Shown one piece after another: positions 2,338-27,298 of a stretch of 64,000 nucleotides of DNA. Source of the DNA: a candidate division WOR-1 bacterium RIFOXYB2_FULL_46_45 (lineage in GTDB: Bacteria; Margulisbacteria; WOR-1; XYC2-FULL-46-14). The notes below the pieces were generated by a model that was not told the DNA's origin, did not search any database, and saw nothing but the letters and a program-made list of their open reading frames with translations. The translations under genes and the position numbers were made by a program. Each line of letters opens with the position of its first letter. Positions within the stretch are counted from its first letter, which is position 1. The stretch covers positions 620,001 through 684,000 of the forward strand of contig MEUE01000001.1 of assembly GCA_001771585.1 (NCBI GenBank), read 5' to 3'.

Positions 2338-3645
2338 ATGTCAACAAAGGTAAAAGAGTTTATCGGAAGAACAGGGGAAACAGCTTATCAATTTAACATT
2401 GTCTTGGATCCGGTTCTTTATGTGGCGATTGATGTCGCGAAATACTTCCACAAGGCCATGATTTTTGATCTTGACAAGAATGTGCTGGAAAAGCCGTTCA
2501 CTTTTGATATCTCCAGGCAAGGATTTAATCTCCTGCTGGAAAAAATCAAGCAGCAGGCCTCAAAGCTGAAGACCGAGTCGATTGTAATCGGCATGGAAGC
2601 TACCGGTCATTATCACGAAACCCTAGTCGAACATCTGCGTTCCAATGGCTTTAAGGTGCTGCTCTTCAATCCTTATGCCACTTTCAAAACCAGAGTGCTG
2701 AATATCGATTATGTCAAAACCGACGAGATTGACTTAAAAGCCATAAGTGAAGCCATGCTCTTGGGTAAGGGGAGAGAATTCCGGCCGGATGGAGACATCT
2801 ACACGGAATTAAAATTGCTGACCAGATTCCGCCGCGCAAAATGCAAGGACAAGGTGATCCTGAAGAATCAAATGCTGCGCGACCTGGACCGCGTCTGGCC
2901 GGGACTGCTCAAAGAATGCCGCAGCAAATTCGGTCTTTTTACCAAGCTCTGGGAGAGCAAGATTGCCCGCGCCCTCCTCAAATTAAACCTTCTTCCGCAA
3001 CAGGTGGCCGCCCTTTCTCCCCATGAAATGCTGGACTTGCTGAAAACTCAAACAAAAGGGGTCGGCCTGTGTTGGGCAAACAAAATCATCAAGCACGCAG
3101 CAAATATCTTGCCTTGCAATGATAAGGAGGCGGCCATACATCTCCATGTCTTAAAAAGCAATCTTGCTCTCCTTGAATCGCTTGATAATTTGATTGACGA
3201 ATTGGAGCGCCGAACCGCCATCTTGTTGGCGGAAACGCCCGGCGTCTATCTGCTTTCGGTTCAAGGACTCAGCTCTATCAGAGTTGCCGAATTCATTGCC
3301 GAGATCGGCAATCCCTACAAATACAACAATGCTCAAGAGTGGGTTAAACTGGCCGGCATTAATCCATCCCGCTACCAGTCCGGAACAATGGATCGGAAGA
3401 CCAATCGCATCACCAAAGTCGGCAATACTTACTTAAGGCATACGCTCTTTAGCCTCGCTAGGGATATTTGCCGCTGGGAACCTTTGTTTGTCGAATACAA
3501 GAACAAGCTTTGTGATAAGGGCAAGCATATTCAGGTTGCCTACGGCGCGGCAGCCAATAAGTTCCTAAGAGTAGCTTTTTCTATGATGATCAGGAAGAGC
3601 AATTTTATTATTGATTACGAAACGAAAAAGGAGAAAAATGCCTAA
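2338..3645 (+). CDS. IS110/IS1111-family DEDD transposase
   Basis: This 435-residue recombinase catalyses transposition of its insertion sequence. The N-terminal RuvC-like DEDD domain shows D32 in YVAIDVAK, E87 in GMEATGHY, and the D129/D132 pair in KTDEIDLK. The C-terminal Transposase_20 domain contains the helix-hairpin-like LLSVQGLSSIRVAEFIAEIG and AGINPSRYQSGT, whose Ser348 is the likely serine nucleophile. At 435 residues it is somewhat longer than common family members (about 330-400), with extra residues before the DEDD domain. ATG 2338 follows the purine-rich AAGGGGG. The family is guided by an RNA encoded in the element's flank; a candidate lies downstream. The frame is intact, so the element may still be active. 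Confidence 0.93.
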   Translation: MSTKVKEFIGRTGETAYQFNIVLDPVLYVAIDVAKYFHKAMIFDLDKNVLEKPFTFDISRQGFNLLLEKIKQQASKLKTESIVIGMEATGHYHETLVEHLRSNGFKVLLFNPYATFKTRVLNIDYVKTDEIDLKAISEAMLLGKGREFRPDGDIYTELKLLTRFRRAKCKDKVILKNQMLRDLDRVWPGLLKECRSKFGLFTKLWESKIARALLKLNLLPQQVAALSPHEMLDLLKTQTKGVGLCWANKIIKHAANILPCNDKEAAIHLHVLKSNLALLESLDNLIDELERRTAILLAETPGVYLLSVQGLSSIRVAEFIAEIGNPYKYNNAQEWVKLAGINPSRYQSGTMDRKTNRITKVGNTYLRHTLFSLARDICRWEPLFVEYKNKLCDKGKHIQVAYGAAANKFLRVAFSMMIRKSNFIIDYETKKEKNA

Positions 3646-4216: not shown

Positions 4217-5533
4217 CTAATTTACACTGCAGAAAAACCACCAGGGAACCGCAAAAAGATTGTCGGCAAATTTTTCCGCATGGGACTGACGGCTTAAAAC
4301 AAATCCTCTTTTTAGCCGCCCTTTTGATAATTCCATCAGTGATCTTATTCCCGAAAAATCGGAGTTTGTGACTTTTTCGGAATATTTGAATTCATAGGCA
4401 AAAAGATCCAATCCTTGTTCGACCACCAGGTCAACTTCCGCGCCGGCCGCGGTCCTAAAAAAATACGGCTCTCCGCCAAACAGGTAAGAACGCTCCTGCT
4501 TAAAAAACTCAGAAACCATCAGAGATTCAAAGGTCCTGCCCACCAACTGGGAAGAAATCAAATTCGCCTTGCCGTATAAATTAAGGCAATGGTTAAAAAA
4601 ACCGATGTCAACCGAAAAAAGCTTCGGAGATTTCACCAGCCGGCTTCTTATGTCTTTGCAGAAAGAAGGGAGCAAGCAGACGTTAAACGAAGCGATCAGG
4701 ACGGAAATATACTTCTTGACGGTGTTAAAGGCCAATCCGGTTTCCCTGGATATGTTCGTATAATTTAAAATTTGCCCGCAGGTGCGGTGGGCAATTTTCC
4801 AAACCAGATCAAAATCCAGCACATTGCCAACCTCTCTTAAGTCCCGAACGTCCTTTTCGATATAAGTTTGATGGTAGTTTTGATGCAGCAATTTCACCTC
4901 GTCAATGTTGTCCTGAAGGTACGCCTCCGGAAACAAACCGTAAGACAGCGCTTTATCCAAGACGTTTTCCGCTCTTTCGTTGGCATCCGAAAACCCCAAG
5001 GCTTCGGACCTTATTGTTTCAAAATCCATCCGGCTTTTTTCCATCCATAAAGGACGGGGAGCGCCGCTTAATATCTCTGTGAAGGAAAGCGGATACATAT
5101 TCACAATTTCAACCCGCCCTCCCAGCGATTCGCTGGTCCTATGCAGCAGGGAAAGAGAACTTGAACCGGAAATCGCGATTTTTATTTTTTCCTTAAACTC
5201 ATCATGAAGAATCTTAAGGTTATTAAACGCTTCCGGAATCTTTTGTACTTCGTCAAAAATCAACAATACCGGCAAATCAATTTTTTCCAAAGGACAACCG
5301 ATAGCAACTTCCAATTTATTTTTAAGATCGGAAAATTTCCCCTTCCACAGCAAAGCATCTTCCAGTCGGTCTCCCAGATATTTTATAACCTTTCCTTTCC
5401 AATCCAATGAAAAATCAATTAAAAGAGTAGTTTTACCAACCTGCCTCGAACCTAAAATGGCTACTATTTTTGCATCTTCTTTAAAATTAAGCTTATTTAG
5501 TGCAATTTTGGCCAATCTTTGATATTTTTGCAT
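4217..5533 (-). CDS. AAA-family ATPase with C-terminal DUF4143 (copy 1)
   Basis: The protein has 438 residues from ATG 5533. I chose that start because a TTGACA/TACACT promoter lies at 5577-5549, inside the longer frame that opens at 5617. Walker A GSRQVGKTT is at 28-36 and Walker B LLIFDEVQK has its DE at 94-95. The sensor-like AISGSSS follows, and the C-terminal DUF4143 part shows the PD-(D/E)XK-like pattern AEVDLVVE...FAYEFKYS. The biochemical role of this widespread family is not established. It lies alone between two copies of a terminator-like direct repeat (4088 and 5635), suggesting arrival as a unit. A relative lies at 17110. Confidence 0.88.
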   Translation of the reverse strand: MQKYQRLAKIALNKLNFKEDAKIVAILGSRQVGKTTLLIDFSLDWKGKVIKYLGDRLEDALLWKGKFSDLKNKLEVAIGCPLEKIDLPVLLIFDEVQKIPEAFNNLKILHDEFKEKIKIAISGSSSLSLLHRTSESLGGRVEIVNMYPLSFTEILSGAPRPLWMEKSRMDFETIRSEALGFSDANERAENVLDKALSYGLFPEAYLQDNIDEVKLLHQNYHQTYIEKDVRDLREVGNVLDFDLVWKIAHRTCGQILNYTNISRETGLAFNTVKKYISVLIASFNVCLLPSFCKDIRSRLVKSPKLFSVDIGFFNHCLNLYGKANLISSQLVGRTFESLMVSEFFKQERSYLFGGEPYFFRTAAGAEVDLVVEQGLDLFAYEFKYSEKVTNSDFSGIRSLMELSKGRLKRGFVLSRQSHAEKFADNLFAVPWWFFCSVN

Positions 5534-5548
5534 GGCAATATTATCAAT

Positions 5549-5577
5549 AGTGTAACGGAATTGCTTAAATTTGTCAA
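5549..5577 (-). promoter_or_regulatory. Sigma-70-type promoter of ATPase copy 1
   Basis: On the minus strand TTGACA (5577-5572) is followed by a 17-base spacer and TACACT (5554-5549). The start codon at 5533 lies 15 bases after the -10. This decides the start of the ATPase gene. Confidence 0.7.
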
Positions 5578-5634
5578 GGCCGTTTTCCAGGGCCATGTAA
5601 ACTGGCCTAAAATGCAATATGGCAGGATGATTAA

Positions 5635-5690: not shown

Positions 5691-6368
5691 TTATTTCAAA
5701 CCGAATTCCAGGTTGTCGATATTGTAGTTAATCTCTCCGGTCTCGGTCACGGCAACACAGATCAACTGGATCTTGACCAGTCCGCCCGAACCGTTCGCTA
5801 GATTGGGGTTCCACTTGAAATCCCCGCGCCCGTCGTTTTTGAACTTGGACATAGGGATTGAAACATGCTTCCACCCTTTCCAGTTCACGTCAATTTCGGA
5901 CGACCAGACATCGTCATAGATCGCTTTCCAGCTCTTGTCGACTTCAACATCGGTGTTGCCGTTGTCGTCGTCGTAAAGCTCGATCTTGAGCTTGCCGCTC
6001 CCTTCTCCCATACCATAGATATCTATTTCAAAACTGGTGTAAGGAGTGGCGTCAACGCCCAGCATGGAGCCCATACCGCCAACATACCAGCTCTTCGCCA
6101 TCCCCTTCATGTTCAGCGAATAGATACCAAGGTTGGGAATAACCGACGGTTCTCCGTCCTGCAGCTTGGCGTTCTTCACAATGGTCGGAATAAGGTTGTC
6201 AAAAACAAACCACTCCGGATCCTTGGTGTAGGTCCCGTCCTCAAAATTATCGATTAAATAAGGATAGGCTTTGCCGGCGCTTTTGCCGCCGGTAGTTGGA
6301 GCCGCCGCAAAACCGCAAAGCATCGGAACAATAAAAATCAGAGCGAATATTAATGCTAGCTTCTTCAT
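5691..6368 (-). CDS. Secreted carbohydrate-binding-type protein
   Basis: The protein has 225 residues. A signal peptide (MKKLALIFALIFIVPMLCGF) likely leaves a mature protein starting near residue 23. The rest is a single beta-sandwich-like domain with YLIDNFEDGTYTKDPEWF at its start and a terminal INYNIDNLEFG strand, the layout of carbohydrate-binding domains of the CBM11/CIA30-like type. It may bind glycan in the periplasm or outside the cell. ATG follows AAGGAGGTGAAATT. The shared promoter motif lies upstream at 6383-6416 and a terminator downstream at 5635-5678, so it is its own transcription unit below the permease operon. Ligand unknown. Confidence 0.7.
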   Translation of the reverse strand: MKKLALIFALIFIVPMLCGFAAAPTTGGKSAGKAYPYLIDNFEDGTYTKDPEWFVFDNLIPTIVKNAKLQDGEPSVIPNLGIYSLNMKGMAKSWYVGGMGSMLGVDATPYTSFEIDIYGMGEGSGKLKIELYDDDNGNTDVEVDKSWKAIYDDVWSSEIDVNWKGWKHVSIPMSKFKNDGRGDFKWNPNLANGSGGLVKIQLICVAVTETGEINYNIDNLEFGLK

Positions 6369-6423: not shown

Positions 6424-8220
6424 TTAGCCCTTGACCGCCCCTGCCGTTAATCCCTTAACTATATATTTCTGCAATAGAAAAAAGATGATCATGACCGGAA
6501 CCGTCGCCACCACCGCCGCCGCCATCATCAGATCAAAACGGTTTTGGTAATTCCCCACAAAGTTGCGGATCCCAACCGGGATCGTCATCGTCTCCGCCGA
6601 GGTCAAAACCCAGGCAAAGATCAGCTCGTCCCAGGTCGATAAAAAGGTCCAGATCCCGGTGGCAATAATTCCCGGAACCGCCAGAGGCAAAACAATGTAC
6701 CAAAAGACCTGGATCGGAGAACAGCCGTCGATTGTCGCCGCTTCTTCAAGCTCGCGTGGAATAGCGGCAAAGAACCCGCGCAAAATCCAGATTGAAAACG
6801 GAATAAAAAAGGCGGAATAGACAAAGATGATCCCGTAATAGGTCCCTTTGAAAGGGATCCCGGTAGTTTCGGTAAATTTTACGAACATCGAATAGATCGG
6901 AATCAAAAACATAATCCCCGGGACCATCTGCGTCGCCAAAATCGTGACCGAAAAAAGCTTGGAGCCGGGAAAATCAAAACGCGCCAGGGCGTACGCCGCC
7001 AGGGTCGCAAAGATCATCGAAAAGACCATCGCCGCCCCGCAGATCAAAAATGAATTCTTGAGATAGAGCCCAAAATCGATGTTTCTCCACATGTCCAGAT
7101 AATTCACAAAAGAGACCACCAGCCGCCCCTTGGCCGCTCCGGAAGTGGCGATAACCTCATCTTTTTCTATGCTGTATTTACTGATCCGGCCGTAGGACGA
7201 TCCGGCATAAACATATTTGCCATTTTGGACGACCGCCGAAACTTCCGCCGGAACCAGCTCCCCGTCTTCGATTATCTCCGCGTGGGAAGACATCGGACGA
7301 AAAAGATCCTCATGCCTTTTGAACGTCCCGCCGTCGGGAAAATATTCGACAAAACCGGTATTGTTCCCCAGCGCGATCCGCCCGGCCGCGACGTCAACGC
7401 TGTCAACCTGCCCGCTTATAATTTTTTGTTCGAACCGCTCTTTTTGCGGAGAAAAGACAAACGCTCCAACCTTGCCGGCCAAAATCAGCCGGTCGTCAAA
7501 TTTTTTAAGCGTCTCCACCCCCAACGGCAGGTGGCCGATGATTGAATAAATATTCTGGATCCGGTCTTTTACCAAATTATATTTAATAAGCGTCTTGTCG
7601 GTCCCCACCCACAACAACTCCCCGTCGTAAAGGATCGACTGGATCTGCTGGGGAGAATAAAGATCGTTTTTTAAATTGAAGACCCGGTGGATCTTTTCGG
7701 TCTCGGTGTTGAATTCGATCACCTTTTCAAAGCCCTTGTACTGCATTGAAAACCAGACAAACTGCCGGTTGCGCGCCAACGCGGTCCCCACCACCTTCGC
7801 CCGGTCGTAATTGCCAAGCTTCAGGTCAAAATCTTTTTTCTCTTTCAGGTTGTCCTTAAAGACCCGGCTTAGGCCGCGGTTGGCGGAGCCGATCCAGACC
7901 TCTTTTCCGTCAAAATTGAAAGAAGTGGAAGCGGTTTCGATGCAGACATTCTGTTCTTTTTTAAAGGATTGCTTATTGAAGCGATTGATCCCCCCATCCG
8001 CCGTTCCGATCCAAAGGGTCTCCCCTTCCAACTGCATGATCTTGATATCGTTCTTGGCGTGGCTTAGGGGAATTTTTCCGACCAGAATATCGGTATTCTC
8101 TTTTAGGGAAGAGTAGATCATCCAAACGATCGGAAAAAGGGTAAAGACCAGAATGATCAGCATGATAGTCGAGATGACAACGTCGTTGATCCTCTTCCTT
8201 TTATAGTATGAAAGACTCAT
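6424..8220 (-). CDS. Sugar ABC transporter permease (MalG type) with inserted beta-propeller
   Basis: The protein has 598 residues, about twice the usual 270-300 for MalG/CUT1 permeases. TM1 is at about 13-35. Residues 368-598 hold the remaining membrane helices and the ATPase-coupling loop EELEEAATIDGCSPIQ. Between them, about residues 55-365 hold some seven repeats of the two-component-regulator propeller type, with recurring cores such as GETLWIGTADGGINRF, KEVWIGSANRG and GELLWVGTDKTL. The loop after TM1 is periplasmic in MalG-type permeases, so the propeller would face the periplasm and could sense or bind glycan. It overlaps the MalF-type permease gene as ATGA (8217-8220). No ABC ATPase gene is present in the window. 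Confidence 0.88.
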   Translation of the reverse strand: MSLSYYKRKRINDVVISTIMLIILVFTLFPIVWMIYSSLKENTDILVGKIPLSHAKNDIKIMQLEGETLWIGTADGGINRFNKQSFKKEQNVCIETASTSFNFDGKEVWIGSANRGLSRVFKDNLKEKKDFDLKLGNYDRAKVVGTALARNRQFVWFSMQYKGFEKVIEFNTETEKIHRVFNLKNDLYSPQQIQSILYDGELLWVGTDKTLIKYNLVKDRIQNIYSIIGHLPLGVETLKKFDDRLILAGKVGAFVFSPQKERFEQKIISGQVDSVDVAAGRIALGNNTGFVEYFPDGGTFKRHEDLFRPMSSHAEIIEDGELVPAEVSAVVQNGKYVYAGSSYGRISKYSIEKDEVIATSGAAKGRLVVSFVNYLDMWRNIDFGLYLKNSFLICGAAMVFSMIFATLAAYALARFDFPGSKLFSVTILATQMVPGIMFLIPIYSMFVKFTETTGIPFKGTYYGIIFVYSAFFIPFSIWILRGFFAAIPRELEEAATIDGCSPIQVFWYIVLPLAVPGIIATGIWTFLSTWDELIFAWVLTSAETMTIPVGIRNFVGNYQNRFDLMMAAAVVATVPVMIIFFLLQKYIVKGLTAGAVKG

Positions 8221-9152
8221 AGCCTTTTTTCCGCCCGGCGGTAGAAATAGAACCAGATATTAACCATAAAAATCATGCAGAGCATCAGGACCACCGAAGC
8301 GGCCGCTCCGGCCCCAAAGTTCCACTGCATAAAAGAGTTGCGAAAAATATTCGTCATCAGAAGGTCGCCCCACTCCCCGGGGAACCCCGCTCCAAAACCG
8401 AACATCATGATGACGATATTAAAACTGTAGACGTTGTAAATCATCCCGAAAAGGATCAAAACCGCCCAGACCGGAGTCAAAAGCGGAAAGGTGATGCTCC
8501 AGAACTTTCTCCACGGGCTGGCGCCGTCGATATCGGCCGCCTCGTAGAGCTCTTCGGGGATCGACTGCATCCCAGCTAAAAGGAGGAGCATGGAAAACGG
8601 CCAGTAACGCCAGATGGTCGGAATAATGATCGCCCAGAGGGTGTTGGGACCGATCAGCCAAAAGGGCTTGTCGGGCATAAGATGAAGGATATCAACCAGA
8701 ATGATATTGATGATCCCCACCCCTCTCTGCCACATGAAGCCCCAGAGAATTCCGGTGACATAGGTTGGAACAACCCACGGAAAGAGGAAGAGGGTGCGGA
8801 TCAGGCGCTTGCCAAAAAACTGGCGGTTGACCATGAGAGCGACGATCATCCCCAGGCTTAAAGTACCAAGGGTAACTATGATCGCGTATATAATAGTATT
8901 GCGGGTCGCTTCGAAGACCCCGATCCGAACCGGACTGTCCGGATTTAAAAGGACGTTGTAAAAATTTTCAAAGCCGATAAAGGGGGCGGAGAGGTATTGG
9001 TTGATGGTGAACTGGTTCAAATCAAGAAAAGCCATCCAGATTCCCTGCGCGATCGGCCCGACGTGCATTGTCAGCATCCCTAAAACTGTCGGTAGCAGAA
9101 AGAGGTAGGCTATTTTGTATTTTCTAAATTCTCGAATTATCCTCTGTATCAT
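8217..9152 (-). CDS. Sugar ABC transporter permease (MalF/UgpA type)
   Basis: This inner-membrane permease has 311 residues, normal length for CUT1 family subunits without the long MalF periplasmic domain. It shows about six helices starting near IAYLFLLPTVLGML, and the cytoplasmic coupling loop EELYEAADIDGASPWRKFW near residues 200-218, which docks the transporter ATPase. It is the first gene of a two-gene unit and its stop overlaps the start of the MalG-type partner. The solute-binding lipoprotein at 24115 is the likely partner, encoded elsewhere in the window. The substrate is probably an oligosaccharide, judged only from the surrounding hydrolases and phosphorylases. Confidence 0.92.
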   Translation of the reverse strand: MIQRIIREFRKYKIAYLFLLPTVLGMLTMHVGPIAQGIWMAFLDLNQFTINQYLSAPFIGFENFYNVLLNPDSPVRIGVFEATRNTIIYAIIVTLGTLSLGMIVALMVNRQFFGKRLIRTLFLFPWVVPTYVTGILWGFMWQRGVGIINIILVDILHLMPDKPFWLIGPNTLWAIIIPTIWRYWPFSMLLLLAGMQSIPEELYEAADIDGASPWRKFWSITFPLLTPVWAVLILFGMIYNVYSFNIVIMMFGFGAGFPGEWGDLLMTNIFRNSFMQWNFGAGAAASVVLMLCMIFMVNIWFYFYRRAEKRL

Positions 9153-9206: not shown

Positions 9207-9299
9207 ACTCACCCTAAATCCCTCTCTTTTCAAGAGAGGGACTTTCCTTTTTGTATCATCTCCCCCTCTCTAGAATAGAGAGGGGGCCGGGGGGTGAGT
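9207..9299. repeat. Compound palindromic intergenic element with two hairpins
   Basis: The outer arms ACTCACCC (9207-9214) and GGGTGAGT (9292-9299) enclose two perfect hairpins: CCCTCTCTT/AAGAGAGGG (9220-9240, 9 bp) and CCCCCTCTCTA/TAGAGAGGGGG (9262-9286, 11 bp). It fills the space between the GH8 stop and the permease operon, even covering part of the stop codon. It can act as a terminator in either direction; the layout resembles a dispersed REP-like element. Confidence 0.65.
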
Positions 9300-10447
9300 C
9301 AGTAAATCCTGAAGTTTCCCGAGGCCATCAACAGTCCAAAGTTCAACCAGCAGATTTCGTAGTAGCGGTATTGGCCGGTGGGGAGCGGCTGTGCCATCAA
9401 GTGGTTGAAAAAATTAACCTTGTCGGTATTGGACGATCCCCCCATTGCGGAGCCGGCAAAAGAACCGATCCATGAAACCACATGGTCGTCCCTGGTTTTG
9501 GTCCCGCCCAAAGAGTACCTGTTGCCAAAAGTATCGTATTGAGGACCAAAGAATCCGATAATTTTATCAAGATAAGTTTTCGCCCTCGGTTCGGTCGCCC
9601 CGAACCAGACGGCGTCAAGTGCAACCTGAAAGGGGACCCGCATCGCGTCGTAATAAAAATCCCGCCCGGTGCTCTGTAACGAGCCGTCTTTATTTGACCA
9701 GTCGGGAACCAAGCCGGTCGCAGCGTTTTTGGAACGATCGATCAGATCGTAGCCGTTTTTGGCAACCGTGTTCCAGATGTTGTCGGAAGTATAGATGGCA
9801 AATAAGCGGTAAAAGGCCGGCATATAATAGGAAAGGTTAAAAATGTTTTTATCGGAAACATTGAAGGTTAAATAGTAGTCGGAGGTCATTTCGTATTTGA
9901 GGATATTATCAAGGATCTTTTTTGCCTGGACCGAATAGTCGTACGGCGCCGCCTTATTTCCCCAGCGATGGGAAGCAAAATATAGCGCCATCGCGATCAT
10001 CTCTTCTCCGTCCGGCGCCGGTTCATAGCTTAAGACTTCACCGCTTGAATCGGTTTGCCAGGAGAAGAGCCCATAGGGGTTGGTATCCTGCATATGGGTT
10101 TTGGTCCAGAGCCAGATCTTATCGAAAGCGGCCTGATCGTTATTTTGGACCGCCAGCATCATCCCGTAGGACTGCCCTTCGGAGACGACCGTATTATCGT
10201 CGGTCCGTGAAACCGCGCCGCTTGGTTGCAGAAGTTCTTGTTTAAAGTAAGCCCAGGCCTCGGCGCATTTTTTGTCGGCCACTGCTTGCGTATAGCTTGA
10301 ACCGGAAAGCGCCGCTGCGGAAGGATAAGTCCCGCTCGCGTAACTCCCTTCTTTGGGAATATTTACCTGGTTTTGAGAATTATAATTGCTATTTTGCACG
10401 CTGCACCCGGACAGGAATAATACCAATATTAGAACAAGTATCCTCAT
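9299..10447 (-). CDS. Glycoside hydrolase family 8 lipoprotein (endo-beta-glucanase/chitosanase type)
   Basis: The protein has 382 residues. A lipoprotein signal ends at LFLSGC (Cys15), so it is membrane-anchored. The body matches GH8 (clan GH-M, alpha/alpha-6 barrel): VVSEGQSYGMM carries the expected catalytic Glu90, and APDGEEMIAMALYFASHRW (D146 region) corresponds to the family signature. GH8 enzymes cut beta-1,4-linked glucan, xylan or chitosan; BcsZ of bacterial cellulose operons is a member. With a cellulose-synthase-like GT2 in the same window it could trim a self-made glycan or degrade one. The start follows the -10 CGATATTG of the shared promoter by only a few bases, suggesting a leaderless mRNA. 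Confidence 0.88.
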   Translation of the reverse strand: MRILVLILVLFLSGCSVQNSNYNSQNQVNIPKEGSYASGTYPSAAALSGSSYTQAVADKKCAEAWAYFKQELLQPSGAVSRTDDNTVVSEGQSYGMMLAVQNNDQAAFDKIWLWTKTHMQDTNPYGLFSWQTDSSGEVLSYEPAPDGEEMIAMALYFASHRWGNKAAPYDYSVQAKKILDNILKYEMTSDYYLTFNVSDKNIFNLSYYMPAFYRLFAIYTSDNIWNTVAKNGYDLIDRSKNAATGLVPDWSNKDGSLQSTGRDFYYDAMRVPFQVALDAVWFGATEPRAKTYLDKIIGFFGPQYDTFGNRYSLGGTKTRDDHVVSWIGSFAGSAMGGSSNTDKVNFFNHLMAQPLPTGQYRYYEICWLNFGLLMASGNFRIY

Positions 10448-13600: not shown

Positions 13601-13772
13601 AATAGCCGGGGACGATACTACAGTTATAATATTCGGTCCCCCAATGCAGGGGAATGTTGTTCTTTGCTCCGTCCTCAAAGCCGCTGTTCTTTAAAAGATC
13701 GACGCTCGCATCAATTGGCAAAATAAAAAATGCCAATGCTAAAAAGCTAGCCCAAAACAACTTCAACTGCAT
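10686..13772 (-). CDS. Large secreted glycoside hydrolase (clan GH-A-like) with two N-terminal sugar-binding modules
   Basis: The protein has 1028 residues from ATG 13772, whose signal peptide MQLKLFWASFLALAFFILP fits; an earlier ATG at 13805 would spoil it. Two CBM4/9-like beta-sandwich modules occupy about residues 25-175 and 185-340, each opening with a LLxNxGFE motif. A TIM-barrel of GH5-like type follows, starting near FYFEDGSRARFWGTNLYPP. The likely acid/base is E554 in KLINEAML and the likely nucleophile E741 in FVVSEWNS. The final 250 residues are beta-rich. Substrate is probably a beta-glycan; the exact GH family is uncertain. The start overlaps the end of the GH94 gene by 26 bases, so the two are cotranscribed. 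Confidence 0.8.
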   Translation of the reverse strand: MQLKLFWASFLALAFFILPIDASVDLLKNSGFEDGAKNNIPLHWGTEYYNCSIVPGYSGKAIKIENKAPAMSLAAQSIKITPEMKKMQISAYIKAENIIEGKENWNKMNIQLLFFDKDEKQVGGWPELGPWTGSFGWRFVGRQFWVPKGAVTAKVVFGIYNTTGAAYFDSVRLETGTFAVDEYNLLENGGFEIWEDWAYGGSEEWAIVYPAQEGVGALYINNKTPVWSFASQSVPIDGSRIKKINVEAYAKAKNVVQGVKPWQKARINLEFKDSKGKRIGGWPIVGEFTGTIPNWQKFSGTFPVPEETVRVDVFAGLLECVGEVWFDSIKVEAITASGERIKKGGVSVTAKDKWYQFNPVPDTFADSTFDLSYLLDAPAGKKGFLKVKGDHFYFEDGSRARFWGTNLYPPMTFPSKQDAEYLAKRLAKSGCNLVRIHHLDAFWANPNIFDQNYNDTQHINKETLDKLDYLLYQLKKNGIYIFVDLLVDRKFKEGDGVADWQNVERGAKFAGFYNKRIIDLQKKYAEQILTHKNPYTGLRYVDDPAIVSYKLINEAMLYYIGTQFGLSKTYLAELDSIWNKWLLNKYGSRAGLEKAWTDRYGRCDLSAEENPSKNNVRRADTPLQYQRGGSEKVEPLREQDTMKFYYDLQVKYFKDMGSYLKLLGCRVPISGSNHWVNVAADVKANAVMDYIDRHRYWDHPQFGYGTRVVFENQAMVKQPKDALPNNFAFYRVAGKPFVVSEWNSCFPNEYRAEGPLLMAAYANHQDWDGVLIFSFNHAGWTAPMQDNFDLSQWPNVLAPWQSAALLFHRGDVKKAKYDFKQTLGDKELFGKIYEDSPIAEEPLLPLISKTQIDFAKEGNVSATEGYVNQFASTEKKTIKSDTGELKIDYGRGIFTINTNRTQAAVGFFKGESVKLSDVSFSSETNFVSLSLSSLDNAPISSSRRLILTAGARIENKGQKFSESRAQLKEVGEAPLLVEGVDAKVTLDRTPRAVYALDVNGGRKAAVSFSGTSFKINPSDQSFAYEVIF

Positions 13773-16176
13773 GCTCCTTCCCTTTTTTGTAATATGGAAT
13801 AACATTTCCTGTAATCTCTTCGCCGTCAATTTTTAAAAATTTCACTCTTTTTTGTCTTCCATCCGGGTTCTTTATTTTTATATTATAAACCGAACCTCTC
13901 ACCACCCGCCGGACTTCAAGTTCCTTCCACTCCGACGGGATGCATGGATCAATTATTATACCATCATAGGATGGCCTGATACCCAGAATATATTGCGAAG
14001 CGGCATAAAGGTTCCAGGCGGCGGAACCGGTCAGCCACGAATTTTTCCCCTCCCCAAAGTCGGGGTGGTCGGGCCCGGCCACCATCTGGCAGTAGACGTA
14101 CGGTTCGATTTTTCTGGTTTCGGCAATTTCATTCTGCGCCGCCGGCAGGATCGCTTTGTAATATTCGAAAGCGCGGTCGCCCCGCCCCAAGATACATTCG
14201 GCCACCATCGCCCACGGGTTGGGGTGGCAAAAAATGGAAGCGTTTTCTTTCAGTCCCGGAGGATAGGTCGAGATTTCGCCGTGTTCCGGATAGTATTTTG
14301 TCAGCGCCGGCTGCTGCAATATAATTCCATGTTTACTAAAAAGCTTTTCATAAACCGAGTCCATGCATTCCATTGCGCGCTTCCCCTCCGCTGCTCCGCT
14401 CATCACTCCCCACGGTTGTGTTTCCAAATAAATTTTGCCCTCTTTATTTTTGTTTGATCCGACCGGTTTTCCTGCGTCATCATACGCCCTCCGGTACCAT
14501 GCCCCATCCCACCCATGCTTGTTCAATATCACCGTCATCTGTATTGCTATCTTTCCGAAAACCTTCTCCTCCGCCTTACCTACGCCTGCGCCTATGCCTA
14601 CGCCTTTTGCCCCAAGCATCTCTATCATCAAATTACAAGAATGAACCAGCATCTCCCCAACCAGCACCGATTCCGCCTTCCCGTTCGGTCCGGTCATATT
14701 GAGGCAGTCGTTCCAATCGGAGAATTTGGATAATGGAAGCCCATGTGGCCCCCTATTTTTCCACGAAAACTCGATTCCTCTTTTTAAATGTTCATATAAT
14801 GTCCCTACCTTAATTTTGCGCTTTGCATTTTGCACTTTGCGCTTATAAACATTGTCATGATGCCCCACCTGCGCAGGAACCATCGGCTCATAGGGAGCGA
14901 ACGGCACTTTCTCTTTCAGGATCGAAAAGTCTCCGGTTTCTTTGATGTAATTCGCGACGGCAATAATCAGCCAGTGCGGATCATCCGAATAACCAAGCAA
15001 CGCTCCTTTTTTGGTAAGAGGCGAATACTGGTGGTAAGTTGAGCCGTCTTCAAACTGGATGGCGGCCAGATCCAAAATTCTCCGGCGGACCTGGTCGGGG
15101 ATGATATGGCAGAAGCCCAAAGTATCCTGGCAGGAATCGCGGAATCCCATCCCCCGCCCGATCCCCGATTCGTAATATGAGGCGTAACGGGACCAGTTGA
15201 AGGTCTGCAAGCACTGATACTGGTTCCAGATGTTGATTGTCGTGTTCATGTCGGAATCCGGAGTTTCTATCTGTAATTTTGAGAGGTTTTCTTCCCAGTA
15301 TTTCTTTATTTTTTCTAATTCTTCGTCGGCTTCCTGAATGCTAAAGGTTTTAATCTTCTTGCTTTTAGAAACGCCGAGAGTAAAAAGGATCGTTTTGCTT
15401 TCGCCCGGATTTAATTTGATCTTTACGCAGTGCGCTCCGATCGGCGACCAGCCAATGGCGGTTGAATTCGAACATTCGTCGCGGACAACCGCTTCCGGCC
15501 TTGAGAGCGGATTGTAGCCGTTATTGCCGAGAAACGCCTTGCGCTGGCAGTCAAAAGAATGGATCGGCTCGGAGCAGGAAAAGTAGGCAAAGATATCCAC
15601 CCAGCTGCCATATTGGGTATCGTGGATGATCGTATTCCCTTCGCAGTGCGCCTTGCCGATTGACCAGGTCCGCTGGAAGTTGTTGGCGTCTCCGACCGCG
15701 TCCCAGAGGCAAAACTCGACAAAGGAGAATAAGCTTAGATCTCGTATCTCGTTGCTCGTATTTCGTATCTCGAGTTTCCAAACCTCCAAATTTTCATTCA
15801 GAGGCACAAAGTAGGTAATGGTGCTTTGCACTTTGAACTTTGAGCTTTGCACTTTAGTGTAGCCGAGTCCATGCTTACACTCATATGTATCTAAACTGGT
15901 TTGGCACGGTTCCCAAGTCGGCGAAAAGAACTCTCCGCTCTCGTTGTCTTTAATGTATATATAGCGGCCGTTGGAATCAAAGGGGATATTGTCGTAGCGG
16001 TAGCGGGTAATCCTTCTTTCACGGGGATCTTTGTAGAAGCTGTATCCTCCGGCGGTATTGGAAATCAAGGCGCAGTAGTCCGATTCTCCAAGATAGTTGA
16101 TCCAGGGGAGCGGCGTGTTGGGGGTTTCAATCACGTATTCTTTATTTATATTATCAAAGTAGCCCTGGCGCACCAT
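13747..16176 (-). CDS. GH94-type glycoside phosphorylase (copy 1)
   Basis: This 809-residue intracellular enzyme should split a beta-linked disaccharide with phosphate, giving a sugar 1-phosphate. The N-terminal GH94 domain begins GYFDNINKEYVIETPNTPLPW. FRDSCQD (D347 region) and SDWNDCLN (D487-D490) fall in the catalytic alpha/alpha barrel; the DWND motif holds the general-acid Asp of the family. Cellobiose or chitobiose are candidate substrates; I cannot choose. Four insertions look repeat-derived: KVQSSKFKVQS, EIRNTSNEIRD, KVQNAKRKIKV and GVGIGAGVGK. The start lies 7 bases after TGCTATAAT, so the mRNA is probably leaderless. It leads the operon with the clan-A hydrolase and is paralogous to the gene at 29155. 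Confidence 0.9.
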   Translation of the reverse strand: MVRQGYFDNINKEYVIETPNTPLPWINYLGESDYCALISNTAGGYSFYKDPRERRITRYRYDNIPFDSNGRYIYIKDNESGEFFSPTWEPCQTSLDTYECKHGLGYTKVQSSKFKVQSTITYFVPLNENLEVWKLEIRNTSNEIRDLSLFSFVEFCLWDAVGDANNFQRTWSIGKAHCEGNTIIHDTQYGSWVDIFAYFSCSEPIHSFDCQRKAFLGNNGYNPLSRPEAVVRDECSNSTAIGWSPIGAHCVKIKLNPGESKTILFTLGVSKSKKIKTFSIQEADEELEKIKKYWEENLSKLQIETPDSDMNTTINIWNQYQCLQTFNWSRYASYYESGIGRGMGFRDSCQDTLGFCHIIPDQVRRRILDLAAIQFEDGSTYHQYSPLTKKGALLGYSDDPHWLIIAVANYIKETGDFSILKEKVPFAPYEPMVPAQVGHHDNVYKRKVQNAKRKIKVGTLYEHLKRGIEFSWKNRGPHGLPLSKFSDWNDCLNMTGPNGKAESVLVGEMLVHSCNLMIEMLGAKGVGIGAGVGKAEEKVFGKIAIQMTVILNKHGWDGAWYRRAYDDAGKPVGSNKNKEGKIYLETQPWGVMSGAAEGKRAMECMDSVYEKLFSKHGIILQQPALTKYYPEHGEISTYPPGLKENASIFCHPNPWAMVAECILGRGDRAFEYYKAILPAAQNEIAETRKIEPYVYCQMVAGPDHPDFGEGKNSWLTGSAAWNLYAASQYILGIRPSYDGIIIDPCIPSEWKELEVRRVVRGSVYNIKIKNPDGRQKRVKFLKIDGEEITGNVIPYYKKGKEHAVEVVLG

Positions 16177-17109: not shown

Positions 17110-18276
17110 ATGCTAAAGAGATTCCTTAACTTGCCTTTAGATGCTCATTTTTTTCTTTTTGGCGCCAGGCAAACTGGAAAAAGCACTCTGCTTCATTCCT
17201 TTTTTCAAAAAGAAACAATTTATTATTATGACCTTTTAAAAACCGAAGAATTTACAAGATTGGCCGCGCATCCCGAATTATTAAGAGAAGAAGTTCTTTC
17301 CCGTCCCGCTCACATAACCCATATAGTAATTGACGAGGTTCAGAGGATTCCGGAACTTTTAAATGAAATTCATCTTTTGATAGAATCTGCAAATGCCCCC
17401 TATTTCGCGCTTTCTGGATCAAGCGCCAGAAAACTAAAACGCTCAAAAGCCAATTTGCTGGCGGGAAGAGCTTTGTCTTATCACCTTTATCCTCTTACAA
17501 TAGAAGAATTGGGACAAAACTTTTCTCTAACCAAAGCCCTGCAATATGGGACTCTGCCAAGTGTTTATCTTGAGGAATCCGTTCAAAATGCGCAGGACCG
17601 GCTTCGCGCTTACGTGGAAGTTTACTTAAAAGAAGAGATTGAATTGGAAGCCCAATCCCGCCGCATCGGTCTATTTATCCATTTTTTGACGATCGCCGCC
17701 GGAGAAAACGGCAACGCCCTTAATTTCTCGAATATTGCCAGGGAAACAGGAACTTCCTACCAAACCGTGAAATCTTATTTCCAAATCCTGGAAGACACCC
17801 TGATCGGTAAATTCCTGTTTCCTTACCAGAAAGCCGCCAGAAAACGATTATCCAAACATCCTAAATTTTATTTTTTTGACACGGGGATCGTCAGGGCATT
17901 GACAAAAAAGATTACAGTTCCTCTTGAACCAAAAACAATCGAATTCGGACGGGCGTTTGAGCATTTTATCTTATTAGATATCATGCGCCAGGCGGAATAT
18001 CGGAAGCTGGATTATAATTTTTCATATTACCGGACCGAGGGCGGCTCTGAAGTCGATCTGATCATTGAAACGCCTAAGGGAGAAACTTTTGCCGTTGAAA
18101 TAAAATCAACTGATACAATCGATTCAACCCACCTGCGCGGGCTTAAATCATTCAAGGAAATATGCCCGAGCGCGAAACTATGTTGTGTTTCAACTTCTCC
18201 GCGCGTGATTAATATCGGAGAAATTACAATCCTCCCGTGGCAAGAGATGAACAATAGCTTTTTGCTCCAAAAATAA
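17110..18276 (+). CDS. AAA-family ATPase with C-terminal DUF4143 (copy 2)
   Basis: The protein has 388 residues. Walker A GARQTGKST is at 18-26, Walker B HIVIDEVQR has its DE at 75-76, and FALSGSSARKL is sensor-like. The C-terminal DUF4143 domain has the nuclease-like pattern SEVDLIIE...FAVEIKST near residues 313-336. It is the same family as the gene at 4217 but clearly diverged. The promoter, palindromic operator and start codon are fused into 35 bases, and there is no room for a ribosome-binding site. The last codons and the TAA lie inside the right copy of a 42-bp direct repeat, so the gene seems to have entered as a 1.3-kb unit. Its cellular role is unknown. Confidence 0.88.
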   Translation: MLKRFLNLPLDAHFFLFGARQTGKSTLLHSFFQKETIYYYDLLKTEEFTRLAAHPELLREEVLSRPAHITHIVIDEVQRIPELLNEIHLLIESANAPYFALSGSSARKLKRSKANLLAGRALSYHLYPLTIEELGQNFSLTKALQYGTLPSVYLEESVQNAQDRLRAYVEVYLKEEIELEAQSRRIGLFIHFLTIAAGENGNALNFSNIARETGTSYQTVKSYFQILEDTLIGKFLFPYQKAARKRLSKHPKFYFFDTGIVRALTKKITVPLEPKTIEFGRAFEHFILLDIMRQAEYRKLDYNFSYYRTEGGSEVDLIIETPKGETFAVEIKSTDTIDSTHLRGLKSFKEICPSAKLCCVSTSPRVINIGEITILPWQEMNNSFLLQK

Positions 18277-22296: not shown

Positions 22297-24048
22297 ATGT
22301 CTTTTAAAATATCTTCCTTGCCGGAAGAGTACCAAGTTTATCTTAGAAAGGCCGAATACGAGTCAGGAGACAATATTAATGGCTCGATAGATACCGGCAA
22401 GGAATTAAAAAAGGCGTTGGAATCCCTACCGGACGACCTGGCAAAACAATTAGTTGAAGCTATAAAGGTTGAGATAAAAAATGCCGCAGGGGTTGACAAA
22501 AAAATCCTGACAAAAGCCGATTATTATGATGGCAAAAAAGGTTACAACGGCTCAATCGACACAATTTCAGAGTTTGTTGAGGTTCTAACAAGCCTATCTC
22601 CGGAACAAGCTACAAAATTTGTCGGTTTATTAAACTATAAAAAGGCAACCTTTGTTTCCGCTCTTCCAAAATCCAGTACAACCGGAGGAAAAGCTGATTA
22701 CAAAAAGGCATCAGAAACCTTGGTGGCTTTTCTAACAAAAAACTCCGGAGACCCGCCAAATGCCGGAAAATCTTTTAGTGTAAACGGCAAAAAAGCCCGC
22801 GGTTACTACCATGCTTATGAAGATAATGAGACACACATAAAAAATGGTGGGGCAACAGTTTCCGAAACTCAGGTTCTCTGTTTCAACTTCTTCGAACTAT
22901 ACGGGAAGAATACCGGAAACACTACCCCCGCTCAAGAAAACTATAACTATCAGAGGTTTTTTATGATGCCGCATGACGGCTGGGACTCTCCGCAATTACC
23001 GGACAGCAAATTAACAAATCCAAATTATAATCCGAGTGGACTGCTACACTGGCTTATTCAGATTTCAAGCAAATCGAGAACCGGAAGCAGAGTATTTAAA
23101 CAGGGAGATAATATAAATTATAAAATCTATGATCCAGGATTTGAAAGCAACAAGACCCCGTCAATTCCATTAAAAAAAGACGGAACCCCCGACTTAACCA
23201 AATTTTGGCCGCATGACAATAATACCTACAAGTTTGGATCGGCTCTGGATGCCGACCAGTGGAGAGTATATGGTTTGTCAATAGGTAACTACACCGACGA
23301 CCTAAGAAAGGCTAAGGCATCACTGGAAGATGTACTGATGAAAAAGGGTTCATACGAAGGAGTCATGATGTTTGGACGAGCTTGGGGGGCAAGCCTTAAA
23401 AAAGGAGAAGTTTTCGGCTGGAAAGCCGACAGTCAAGACCTTTATCCCGGCTATCAGGATCCTGCTGTTTGGCACATATTAAAGCGTCCCGATATAAGCA
23501 AAAAAATCGTTGCTTTTTTAGAAGATGCGCAAAATGCTTTCCCGGGAAAACCGGGATTATTTATGCCGGTTTGGAAAGAAGGTAGCTTCGGCTGGTCTGG
23601 TGCCGACCCAAATACCGACTGGATGGGATTTCAATACAGAACCTTTGCCCACTTGGCACATTATTATTATCTGACCGGAGACAAAAAAGCAAAAGTAATT
23701 CTTGACAAATTTTACGGTTTCATAAAGAAAAAATGGACAAAAGGCTCCAACGGAGAAGTCGGAATTCCTTTAATGATCACCAAAGGAACAGCAAGAACAA
23801 CCAATACCTTTAGTCCCGATTCCCACGGACTAATGGCCCAGGGATTGCTCTATCTGGCAAAAAGAAGTGGGGATTTAAAATATAAGACAGACGCCGAATC
23901 ATTACTGGACGACCTGACTAAAAACCGCCAAGAAAAATCAGGAAAGATGAAAGGATCGTTTATTTCTCCCAAAGATAATTTAACTTTTGGCTTTCATCAA
24001 TGCGAGGTTGGCATTGCTCTCTCTCTGCATGACTTATTGATCAACTAG
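22297..24048 (+). CDS. Unknown protein: two EF-hand-like loops plus helical-barrel domain
   Basis: The protein has 583 residues. Two related N-terminal segments (about 20-37 and 74-93) contain NGSID-type loops, similar to the loop in the previous gene. From residue 150 onward the sequence is rich in Trp, Tyr and Asp. The C-terminal part (about 410-583), including DWMGFQYRTFAHLAHYYYL and SPDSHGLMAQGLLYLAKRSGD, resembles alpha/alpha-barrel glycoside hydrolases or lyases. I cannot name the family. No signal peptide is seen, so if exported it uses another route. AGGAGG precedes the start and the gene lies 18 bases after its partner. Confidence 0.65.
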   Translation: MSFKISSLPEEYQVYLRKAEYESGDNINGSIDTGKELKKALESLPDDLAKQLVEAIKVEIKNAAGVDKKILTKADYYDGKKGYNGSIDTISEFVEVLTSLSPEQATKFVGLLNYKKATFVSALPKSSTTGGKADYKKASETLVAFLTKNSGDPPNAGKSFSVNGKKARGYYHAYEDNETHIKNGGATVSETQVLCFNFFELYGKNTGNTTPAQENYNYQRFFMMPHDGWDSPQLPDSKLTNPNYNPSGLLHWLIQISSKSRTGSRVFKQGDNINYKIYDPGFESNKTPSIPLKKDGTPDLTKFWPHDNNTYKFGSALDADQWRVYGLSIGNYTDDLRKAKASLEDVLMKKGSYEGVMMFGRAWGASLKKGEVFGWKADSQDLYPGYQDPAVWHILKRPDISKKIVAFLEDAQNAFPGKPGLFMPVWKEGSFGWSGADPNTDWMGFQYRTFAHLAHYYYLTGDKKAKVILDKFYGFIKKKWTKGSNGEVGIPLMITKGTARTTNTFSPDSHGLMAQGLLYLAKRSGDLKYKTDAESLLDDLTKNRQEKSGKMKGSFISPKDNLTFGFHQCEVGIALSLHDLLIN

Positions 24049-24114: not shown

Positions 24115-25458
24115 ATGCTAAAAAAGGGATTGTTGTTTCTTTGTTTGTTGACCCTGGTTCTGTCGACTCTCTCCTGCGCCCCGGCCGAAAAAGACGACAC
24201 GGTGACCCTAAAGATGTGGATCATGCCCAATTCTTTAGAGCCGCAAATTGATATCGACGACGTGTTGAAGAAATTCGAAGAAAAAAATCCCAAGATAAAA
24301 GTCAAAGCGACCGTGATCGACTGGGGAGCGGCCTGGACCAAGATAACCACCGCCGCGACCAGCAACGATGTCCCCGATATCGTCCAGCTCGGTTCAACCT
24401 GGGTCGGCGCTATCTCCGGAATGGACGCTTTGCTTGACGTGGCCGACCGGGTAGAAGAAATTGGAGGGGCGGGCGCCTTTGTCCCCGCTTCTTGGAAGAC
24501 CGCCGGGATCGCCGGTAGCGGAAAAATCACCGCCATCCCCTGGATCGTTGACTGCCGCGCCCTTTTTTACCGGAGCGATGTGTTTAAAAAAGCGGGAGTG
24601 AACCCTGCCGAACTCGATACGTGGGAAGGATTTAAAAACGCCCTTGATAAAGTAAAAAAAGCCAATATTACAATCGAAGGACTGCAGATCTATCCTCTTG
24701 GGATGCCCGGGAAAAACGACTGGAACGTAGTACACAACCTGGCCCCATGGATCTGGGCCGCCGGAGGAAATTTTCTGGCAGAAGACAACCGGACCCCAAT
24801 TGTAAACAGCAAAGAAGCGTTGAAAGGCATCATGTTTTATATCGGGCTGGCCAAAGCCGACTATGTCCCCGCCGAATATCTTGAACTGAACACCGCGCAG
24901 GTCAGCTCAAATTTCAACAACGGCTCGGTCGGAATGTATTTTGACGGCCCGTATGAAGTCAAGACCCTAACCACCCCGCCGGCACAAGGGGGAGCCTCGG
25001 AAGGGATCACCGCCGGTAATTTTGGGGTCACGCAATATCCCAAGGGACCGACCGGAAGATATACTTTCATCGGCGGATCAAACCTTGGAATTTTCAAGGC
25101 GTCCAAGCACAAAGAAGAGGCCTGGCAGGTGGTCAAATACTTGACTTCCGACCCGACCGCCCAGCTTGACTACACCAAAGCGTGCGGCTTTTTACCGGCG
25201 CGGATGAGCGTCTTCAACCACCCCTATTTCTCGGCCCACCCGGGGAGAAAAATTTTCAAAGACGCGGTAAAGTACGGCCGCGCCTACCCGGCGATTTCCG
25301 GCTGGGGGCTTTTGGAACCGATCTTGACCAGGAGATTCGGCATCATGTGGGACTATGTTACCGGATCGAAAGACCCGATCAAAGAAGAAGATATTCAGAA
25401 ACAGCTCGACCTCGCCAAAAAAGAAATCGAGGCGGTGCTGTCTCAAGGAAAAAAATAA
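24115..25458 (+). CDS. Sugar-binding lipoprotein of an ABC transporter (family 1 SBP)
   Basis: The protein has 447 residues. The lipobox LSTLSC puts the modified Cys at 21. The body is a MalE-type periplasmic-binding fold, with DTVTLKMWIMPNS at the first strand, VPDIVQLGSTWV, and a hinge region near AAGGNFLAEDN. It would capture an oligosaccharide and deliver it to CUT1 permeases such as those at 6424-9152. Expression has an extended -10 (TGGTATAAT at 24076-24084) and an AAAGGAG site. The glmS gene follows after 4 bases, so they are probably cotranscribed. Confidence 0.92.
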   Translation: MLKKGLLFLCLLTLVLSTLSCAPAEKDDTVTLKMWIMPNSLEPQIDIDDVLKKFEEKNPKIKVKATVIDWGAAWTKITTAATSNDVPDIVQLGSTWVGAISGMDALLDVADRVEEIGGAGAFVPASWKTAGIAGSGKITAIPWIVDCRALFYRSDVFKKAGVNPAELDTWEGFKNALDKVKKANITIEGLQIYPLGMPGKNDWNVVHNLAPWIWAAGGNFLAEDNRTPIVNSKEALKGIMFYIGLAKADYVPAEYLELNTAQVSSNFNNGSVGMYFDGPYEVKTLTTPPAQGGASEGITAGNFGVTQYPKGPTGRYTFIGGSNLGIFKASKHKEEAWQVVKYLTSDPTAQLDYTKACGFLPARMSVFNHPYFSAHPGRKIFKDAVKYGRAYPAISGWGLLEPILTRRFGIMWDYVTGSKDPIKEEDIQKQLDLAKKEIEAVLSQGKK

Positions 25459-25462
25459 ATAA

Positions 25463-27298
25463 GTGTGCGGAATTTTCGGATACATCGGAAAGCGCGAAGC
25501 TCTCCCCTTCATACTTGAAGGGCTAAAGAAGCTTGAGTACCGCGGGTACGATTCCGCCGGGGTCTCCACTATTCAACACGGAAAGATATTCCTGAACAAA
25601 TCTTGCGGAAAAATTGCCCGCCTGGAAGAAGTCCTTGAGGCCAGACCGATCGGCGGTTCAATTGGGATCGGACACACCCGCTGGGCAACCCACGGAAAGC
25701 CCTCCGACGAAAACTCGCATCCCCACAGCGACTGCTCCGACCAAATCACCGTGGTCCACAACGGGATAATCGAAAATTACCTCGAGTTGAGAAGGCAATT
25801 GGCGGAAGAGGGGCATAAGTTTACCTCTGCCACCGACACCGAAGTGATCGCGCACCTTATTGAAAAATATTTCAAAGAGACCGGGAGCCTTGAAACGGCC
25901 GTCCGGAAAACCTTAAACGCCATTGATGGCTCCTACGCCCTGGGAGTTATCTCCGAACACGAACCGGACAAACTGATCGCCGCCCGAAAAGGAAGCCCGC
26001 TTTTGATCGGGATAGAAGAGGACGAAACTTTTATCGCCTCGGATATTTCGGCGCTGATAAAATACACCTCCCGCGTGATTTATTTGAACGATTACGAGCT
26101 GGCGGTCATCACCGAAAACGACATCGTTATAAAAGACCGGGACGGAAAAACTTTAAAGAAGAATATCTCTTTTATCTCCTGGGACCCGGAGTCGGCAGAA
26201 AAATGCGGCTATACCCATTTCATGTTGAAAGAGATCCACGAACAACCGAACGCGATCAGGAAGACGATCGAAGGGCGCATCTCGGCCGAATCGGCCAACA
26301 TCCATTTTGACGAGCTGAACTTAACCGAAAAAGAGATCAAAAATATCAACCGGGTAGTTTTTACCGCCTGCGGGACCTCCTGGCATGCCGCTCTGGTCGG
26401 AGAATATCTGATCGAACAGATGGTCAAACTGCCGGCCGAAGTCGAGTACGCCGCCGAGTTCCGCTACCGCCATCCGGTGATCGACGACAAAACTTTGGTG
26501 ATCGCCATCTCCCAATCGGGGGAGACCGCCGATACTTTGGCTGCCGCCTGGGAAGCAAAGTCGCTGGGAGCAAAAGTTATTTCAATCTGCAATGTGGTCG
26601 GATCAACTCTCGCCCGCGATTCGCACGGGGTAATTTATACCCAGGCCGGGCCTGAAATCGGGGTCGCTTCCACCAAGGCCTTTACCACCCAATTGAGCGT
26701 GATCTATCTTTTAACCCTCCTTTTGGCAAGGACCAAAGGGACTTTAACCGGAGCGGAAATTAAAAATTATATCCATGACCTGATCGAATTGCCCGGCAAG
26801 ATCGAACAGGTTTTGGCGCGTGAACATGAGATAGAAAAAATCGCCCAAAAATACTACTTGAGCAACAATGCCCTCTTCCTCGGCAGAGGGAAAGGCTTCC
26901 CGATCGCGCTTGAAGGGGCGTTGAAACTCAAAGAAATCTCCTATATCCACGCGGAGGGCTATCCGGCGGCGGAGATGAAACACGGGCCGATCGCTTTAAT
27001 CGACCAGAACATGCCGGTGGTTGTTTTGGCAATGACGGGAAAACGTTACGAAAAGATTTTGGGAAATATTGAAGAGGTCAAAGCGCGCGGCGGACAGGTT
27101 ATCGCCATCGCGAATGAAGGCGATAATTATATCCAGGAAAAAGCGGACGAGGTCTTCTATCTTCCCAAAAGCCCCATCGCGGTCTCACCGATCCTGGCGG
27201 TCATCCCGCTCCAGCTTCTGGCCTACTACATCGCCGTCAAACGCGGCTGCCATATTGATCAGCCCCGCAACCTCGCCAAATCGGTCACGGTTGAATAA
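25463..27298 (+). CDS. glmS: Glutamine-fructose-6-phosphate aminotransferase
   Basis: The protein has 611 residues, the normal length. It makes glucosamine-6-phosphate from fructose-6-phosphate and glutamine, feeding peptidoglycan and lipopolysaccharide synthesis. GTG 25463 is the start because the next codon gives Cys2, the glutaminase nucleophile, in MCGIFGYIGKREALPF. The N-terminal class II amidotransferase domain (GHTRWATHGKPSDENSHPH) is followed by two SIS domains (ISQSGETADTLAA and FLGRGKGFPIALEGALKLKE) and the C-terminal KSVTVE. It follows the sugar-binding lipoprotein by 4 bases, an unusual pairing that may link amino-sugar import and synthesis. Confidence 0.97.
   Translation: MCGIFGYIGKREALPFILEGLKKLEYRGYDSAGVSTIQHGKIFLNKSCGKIARLEEVLEARPIGGSIGIGHTRWATHGKPSDENSHPHSDCSDQITVVHNGIIENYLELRRQLAEEGHKFTSATDTEVIAHLIEKYFKETGSLETAVRKTLNAIDGSYALGVISEHEPDKLIAARKGSPLLIGIEEDETFIASDISALIKYTSRVIYLNDYELAVITENDIVIKDRDGKTLKKNISFISWDPESAEKCGYTHFMLKEIHEQPNAIRKTIEGRISAESANIHFDELNLTEKEIKNINRVVFTACGTSWHAALVGEYLIEQMVKLPAEVEYAAEFRYRHPVIDDKTLVIAISQSGETADTLAAAWEAKSLGAKVISICNVVGSTLARDSHGVIYTQAGPEIGVASTKAFTTQLSVIYLLTLLLARTKGTLTGAEIKNYIHDLIELPGKIEQVLAREHEIEKIAQKYYLSNNALFLGRGKGFPIALEGALKLKEISYIHAEGYPAAEMKHGPIALIDQNMPVVVLAMTGKRYEKILGNIEEVKARGGQVIAIANEGDNYIQEKADEVFYLPKSPIAVSPILAVIPLQLLAYYIAVKRGCHIDQPRNLAKSVTVE

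Follow-up and report, generated by a model that had tools for sequence, protein, structure and literature searches.

In the MalF subunit of the E. coli maltose importer, residues 91-271 form the periplasmic domain P2, and on the periplasmic side of MalG residues 70-72 contact the binding protein MalE, the N-lobe of which has MalG as its main contact (PMC3150292). The MalG1 and MalG2 proteins of Thermotogales have about 500 residues between TM1 and TM2 (Noll et al. 2008, PMC2246101), and a periplasmic propeller fold occurs in hybrid two-component sensors of the BT4663 type. Here we analyzed a window of 64,000 nucleotides from a candidate division WOR-1 bacterium (contig MEUE01000001.1, positions 620,001 to 684,000), which encodes a MalG-type CUT1 permease, referred to as P0001, with a predicted beta-propeller inserted between TM1 and TM2.

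The P0001 insert is, like MalF-P2, a large periplasmic domain in a topologically equivalent CUT1 loop, but P2 belongs to the other half-transporter, comprises about 180 residues, and is not a propeller (PMC2246101, PMC3150292). With the Thermotogales proteins P0001 shares the MalG-type CUT1 permease and a large hydrophilic TM1-TM2 insert; this comparison is by description only, and the source gives neither fold nor function for the Thermotogales insert (PMC2246101). The BT4663-type proteins have the same fold, but they are sensors and not transporters, and the Reg_prop sequence matches of P0001 are weak. No permease with a propeller was found in the literature searched, which left most subscription papers outside its scope and is thus not proof of absence.

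The permease gene and its insert

The P0001 gene is located on the minus strand, from an ATG start at 8220 to position 6424, and encodes 598 amino acids in an uninterrupted frame. The BPD_transp_1 domain (Pfam PF00528) is assigned to residues 405-591 (E 2.8e-20), homology to SugB (4.8e-54) and MalG (6.6e-37) extends over TM1-TM6, and the EAA region shows no variation among 23 relatives. Both ends of the protein align with short MalG-type permeases, leaving about 314 extra residues between them (range about 310-314); over the shared columns a 280-residue Endomicrobia orthologue is 65% identical to P0001, and Bacillota orthologues are 55-60% identical to its ends. Solved SugB and MalG proteins align across the insertion point, which places the extra residues in the TM1-TM2 loop. 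From the alignment to these proteins and to the short orthologues, the junctions lie after '..KENTDILVGK' and before '..NYLDMWRN'. In particular, residues 1-51 (8068-8220, minus strand) comprise the cytoplasmic N-terminus, TM1, and the start of the periplasmic loop, residues 52-365 (7126-8067, minus strand) the insert, and residues 366-598 with the stop codon (6424-7125, minus strand) the remaining loop and TM2-TM6 with the EAA motif. An earlier note on this DNA had described a continuous MalG-type CUT1 permease, intact at both ends, with an insert of about 310 residues between TM1 and TM2, and all of this is borne out. We regard it as nearly certain that P0001 is a MalG-type permease with a propeller in this loop.

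In the AlphaFold2 model, built from 14 sequences, residues 59-361 are predicted to form 28 strands arranged as seven blades of four antiparallel strands (pLDDT about 90), so that the insert as modelled is well folded and not disordered. Solved seven-bladed propellers match it over about 265 residues (Z about 27, rmsd 2.4-2.9). The Foldseek matches include the heparin sensor BT4663, a glycan-sensing propeller, and many unrelated propellers match as well as BT4663 or better. The mean pLDDT of the whole protein is 72, with a poorly modelled membrane part in which many stretches fall below 50; hence the orientation of the propeller cannot be read from the model. The earlier assignment to the two-component-regulator propellers stands for the fold and is doubtful for the sequence family, since Reg_prop scores 17.5 bits in P0001, below the curated cut-off of 20.4, and among the 23 relatives it is matched by 5 proteins (at E up to 0.05) as compared with 16 for the PorZ propeller and 10 for PQQ_2. 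Judged by these profile matches, the insert propeller fits no single sequence family. Its conserved residues are mostly repeat-motif positions; among the loops, conservation is strongest in the B-C loops, where part of it reflects the structural repeat motif. A recent origin of the insert from a sensor propeller of the same genome was rejected, as the genome has no Reg_prop protein. The comparison family PF12501 was found, among the controls, in Caulobacter only.

The earlier note placed the MalF domain in a loop different from that of the propeller, which does not agree with the alignments. The MalF-type partner of P0001, a 311-aa permease, is encoded at 8217-9152 (minus strand) with a 4-base overlap between the two genes. 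The helix immediately following P2 (MalF 280 onward) aligns with this subunit from residue 82 on, and residues 466-544 of P0001 align with MalF 380-458. P2 is therefore followed directly by the counterpart of TM2 in a six-helix permease, and by this alignment P2 and the propeller occupy the same loop of opposite half-transporters.

Distribution and loss of the propeller

Among named genomes, the closest relatives come from Candidatus Saganbacteria, WOR-1, and Margulisiibacteriota, which places the window genome in the little-known phylum Margulisbacteria (Margulisbacteria/Saganbacteria). Of the 74 genomes of this phylum that were searched, 28 have the complete fusion with identical junctions (families f1-f7, f10, and f27-f30). 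In two more, G014 and G033, the fusion is interrupted by a frameshift or by the ends of contigs; in G014 it is split into two overlapping frames (L083, 9921-11390 and 11321-11716) by a frameshift or sequencing error. The earlier note had asked for homologues with the same fusion as a control for misassembly. Since the fusion recurs with identical junctions in 28 genomes, covering many independent assemblies and families, it is due neither to chance nor to misassembly; nothing was found in favor of an assembly error or chimera, the probability of which is negligible.

Six genomes of family f8 have an insert of about 200 residues, and ten genomes (nine of the sister family f9 and one of f8) have only a 14-residue linker. 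Strand alignment showed blades 1-3 and 7 to be retained in the short f8 insert and blades 4-6 (P0001 residues 193-304, 7309-7644, minus strand) to be missing, both breaks falling in inter-blade loops. In the phylogenetic tree built on the permease cores (MalG-type and MalF-type, insert columns excluded), all rows with four blades or none group in a single clade (SH-aLRT 100) that lies within the full-length rows, and loss is thus the best interpretation of both states. The base of the tree, with Endomicrobia L007 and the divergent G001, consists of long branches and is not resolved, so that a gain of the insert just before the phylum and a gain just within it are indistinguishable.

Selection was measured on three close pairs, L035/L038, L031/L032, and L055/L061, with dS of 0.16, 0.45, and 1.06, respectively. 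The corresponding dN/dS values are 0.10, 0.10, and 0.12 for the insert versus 0, 0.03, and 0.04 for the core; where dS is saturated, the pairs show this contrast in direction only. The insert is maintained by purifying selection, yet it is less constrained than the pore.

No propeller-bearing orthologue was detected in 149 Elusimicrobiota and 398 Bacillota genomes sampled, of which few candidates per genome were scored, and thus rare fusions could be missed. Orthologues from Endomicrobia (L007) and Bacillota (L008-L013) represent the same permease, being 55-65% identical, with SBP and MalF-type genes adjoining, but unlike P0001 they have no insert. A 757-codon frame in Bacillota genome G406 was rejected as a fusion, since its length comes from a high-GC extension that runs out of frame across the MalF-type gene, and a search of viral contigs yielded one distant permease. 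MalG-type permeases of 625-639 residues were observed in Elusimicrobiota (L095 in G116, L096 and L097 in G087, and L098 in G141). They resemble P0001 in having an insert, of about 370 residues, at the same MalG-type site; however, it consists of repeats that follow the pattern 'FLKxKYxxxIxxLNxxYxTxYxSF', is probably helical (as judged by eye), and is unrelated in sequence. Taken with the Thermotogales and Margulisbacteria inserts, these proteins identify the TM1-TM2 loop of MalG as a recurrent insertion point.

Partner proteins and neighboring genes

The putative CUT1 partner set of P0001 is completely encoded in the genome: the MalF-type subunit, a solute-binding protein (SBP), and one MalK-type (OB_MalK) ATPase located on another contig. 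The SBP is the lipoprotein encoded at 24115-25458 (plus strand), an orthologue of the SBP that adjoins the permease pair in Elusimicrobiota, Bacillota, and other Margulisbacteria; the two partners named in the earlier note, this lipoprotein and the MalF-type protein, are thereby supported. The gene order SBP, MalF-type, MalG-type is found in Endomicrobia, Bacillota, and the f27-f30 genomes, and in the class of the window genome the SBP gene lies away from the permease pair. The orthologues of the lipoprotein are 48-76% identical for near-complete matches. By family, they are present where the permease is present and absent where it is absent, the exceptions being a few incomplete genomes. Indels in the SBP follow the clade.

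Upstream of the permease genes and on the same minus strand are genes for a GH8 family enzyme (9299-10447) and a GH94 phosphorylase family enzyme (13747-16176), and GH42 and CBM4_9 proteins also occur among the neighbors. These genes suggest oligosaccharides derived from beta-glucan, probably beta-gluco-oligosaccharides, as the substrate of the importer. The downstream neighbor at 5691-6368 (minus strand) encodes a 225-aa protein with weak CBM/SGBP matches, which most Margulisbacteria of the same class as the window genome retain close to the permease (37-62% identity). Directly downstream of the f8/f9 permease there is a gene for a GH26-like secreted protein with a CBM9-like C-terminal part, as judged by eye (L067 4714-6489, L069 8280-10019, L076 8484-10178, and L079 8335-9978). 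This gene of 550-600 aa was considered as a separated propeller and rejected, as by eye it reads as a GH26-like secreted enzyme.

Just upstream of the SBP gene, the product of 22297-24048 (plus strand) matches GH48 cellulases weakly and only in part (E 4.7e-11, 112 residues). The gene directly following the SBP gene (25463-27298, plus strand) encodes a GlmS-like protein with SIS and glutamine amidotransferase domains, and a GlmS homologue precedes the SBP in G035 (L064). Around the glycan locus there are also an IS110-type transposase (2338-3645, plus strand) and two AAA_14/DUF4143 proteins (4217-5617, minus strand, and 17110-18276, plus strand).

Possible roles of the propeller

By analogy with MalF-P2, we propose that the propeller may be an accessory platform that helps to dock or retain the binding protein, a reading to which we give a probability of roughly 40%. 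P0001 is the MalG-type subunit of a CUT1 ABC importer, and a whole propeller of seven blades would have entered its periplasmic TM1-TM2 loop in an ancestor of Margulisbacteria; on the periplasmic side, the propeller would then stand next to the docked binding protein. By the strand order of the model and the register of the Reg_prop-like motif, the first element of the inserted chain is the inner strand of blade 1 and the last is the outer strand of blade 7. In propellers, such chain ends exit on the face of the D-A and B-C loops; both linkers should therefore leave this face, which should look toward the membrane and the binding protein. The docking role is favored by the P2-equivalent loop, the contact of MalG with MalE, and the conserved B-C loops, with a glycan receptor as the second choice. 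A single SBP orthologue accompanies the permease across the phylum and its gene still adjoins the permease in other lineages, which is consistent with docking. Against it, SBP and insert distances do not co-vary when the permease core is held fixed (partial r 0.16). Since about ten genomes have lost the insert and keep the SBP, docking does not require it, and the pore does not include it, since relatives dropped it without visible change in the permease.

A role as a glycan receptor, in which the propeller would capture oligo- or polysaccharides beside the importer or sense a glycan, as the earlier note suggested, would agree with the glycan-degrading functions of adjoining genes and with the presence of BT4663 among the structural matches. 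However, unrelated propellers score equally or better and the fold does not show function, the conserved positions of the insert contain no recognized sugar-binding signature, no signalling partner was found for P0001, and the genome has no Reg_prop sensor elsewhere; we consider this role unlikely. It is likewise unlikely, in our view, that the importer carries in the propeller a ligand-responsive domain, binding either a glycan or the loaded SBP and tuning transport, which one clade then removed stepwise.

Propellers are common protein-binding scaffolds, and the domain might tether another envelope protein to the importer, either a periplasmic glycosidase or the CBM-like protein encoded just downstream in most relatives. 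The gene for the latter, however, still adjoins the permease in f8/f9, where the propeller is reduced or absent, and a tethering role appears quite doubtful. Finally, the faster evolution of the insert relative to the pore and its shrinkage in one clade to four blades and then to none could indicate a tolerated, largely functionless insertion that is being lost. Purifying selection and the retention of seven blades in most permease-bearing families of the phylum argue against such an explanation, making it improbable.

The usual picture of a type I importer is a bare pore supplied by a separate binding protein, MalF-P2 being the well-studied exception. The conserved propeller on the MalG side means that the equivalent loop of the second half-transporter was put to use as well, by a fold known for versatile binding. 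New in this analysis are the identified propeller fold in the MalG loop, its phylum-wide retention, and the series of seven, four, and no blades. The related four-blade and no-blade genomes provide ready-made comparison proteins, and should the propeller be ligand-responsive, the series would represent a natural dissection. The propeller also offers a better-defined counterpart to the large Thermotogales MalG inserts, for which the 2008 description gave no explanation.
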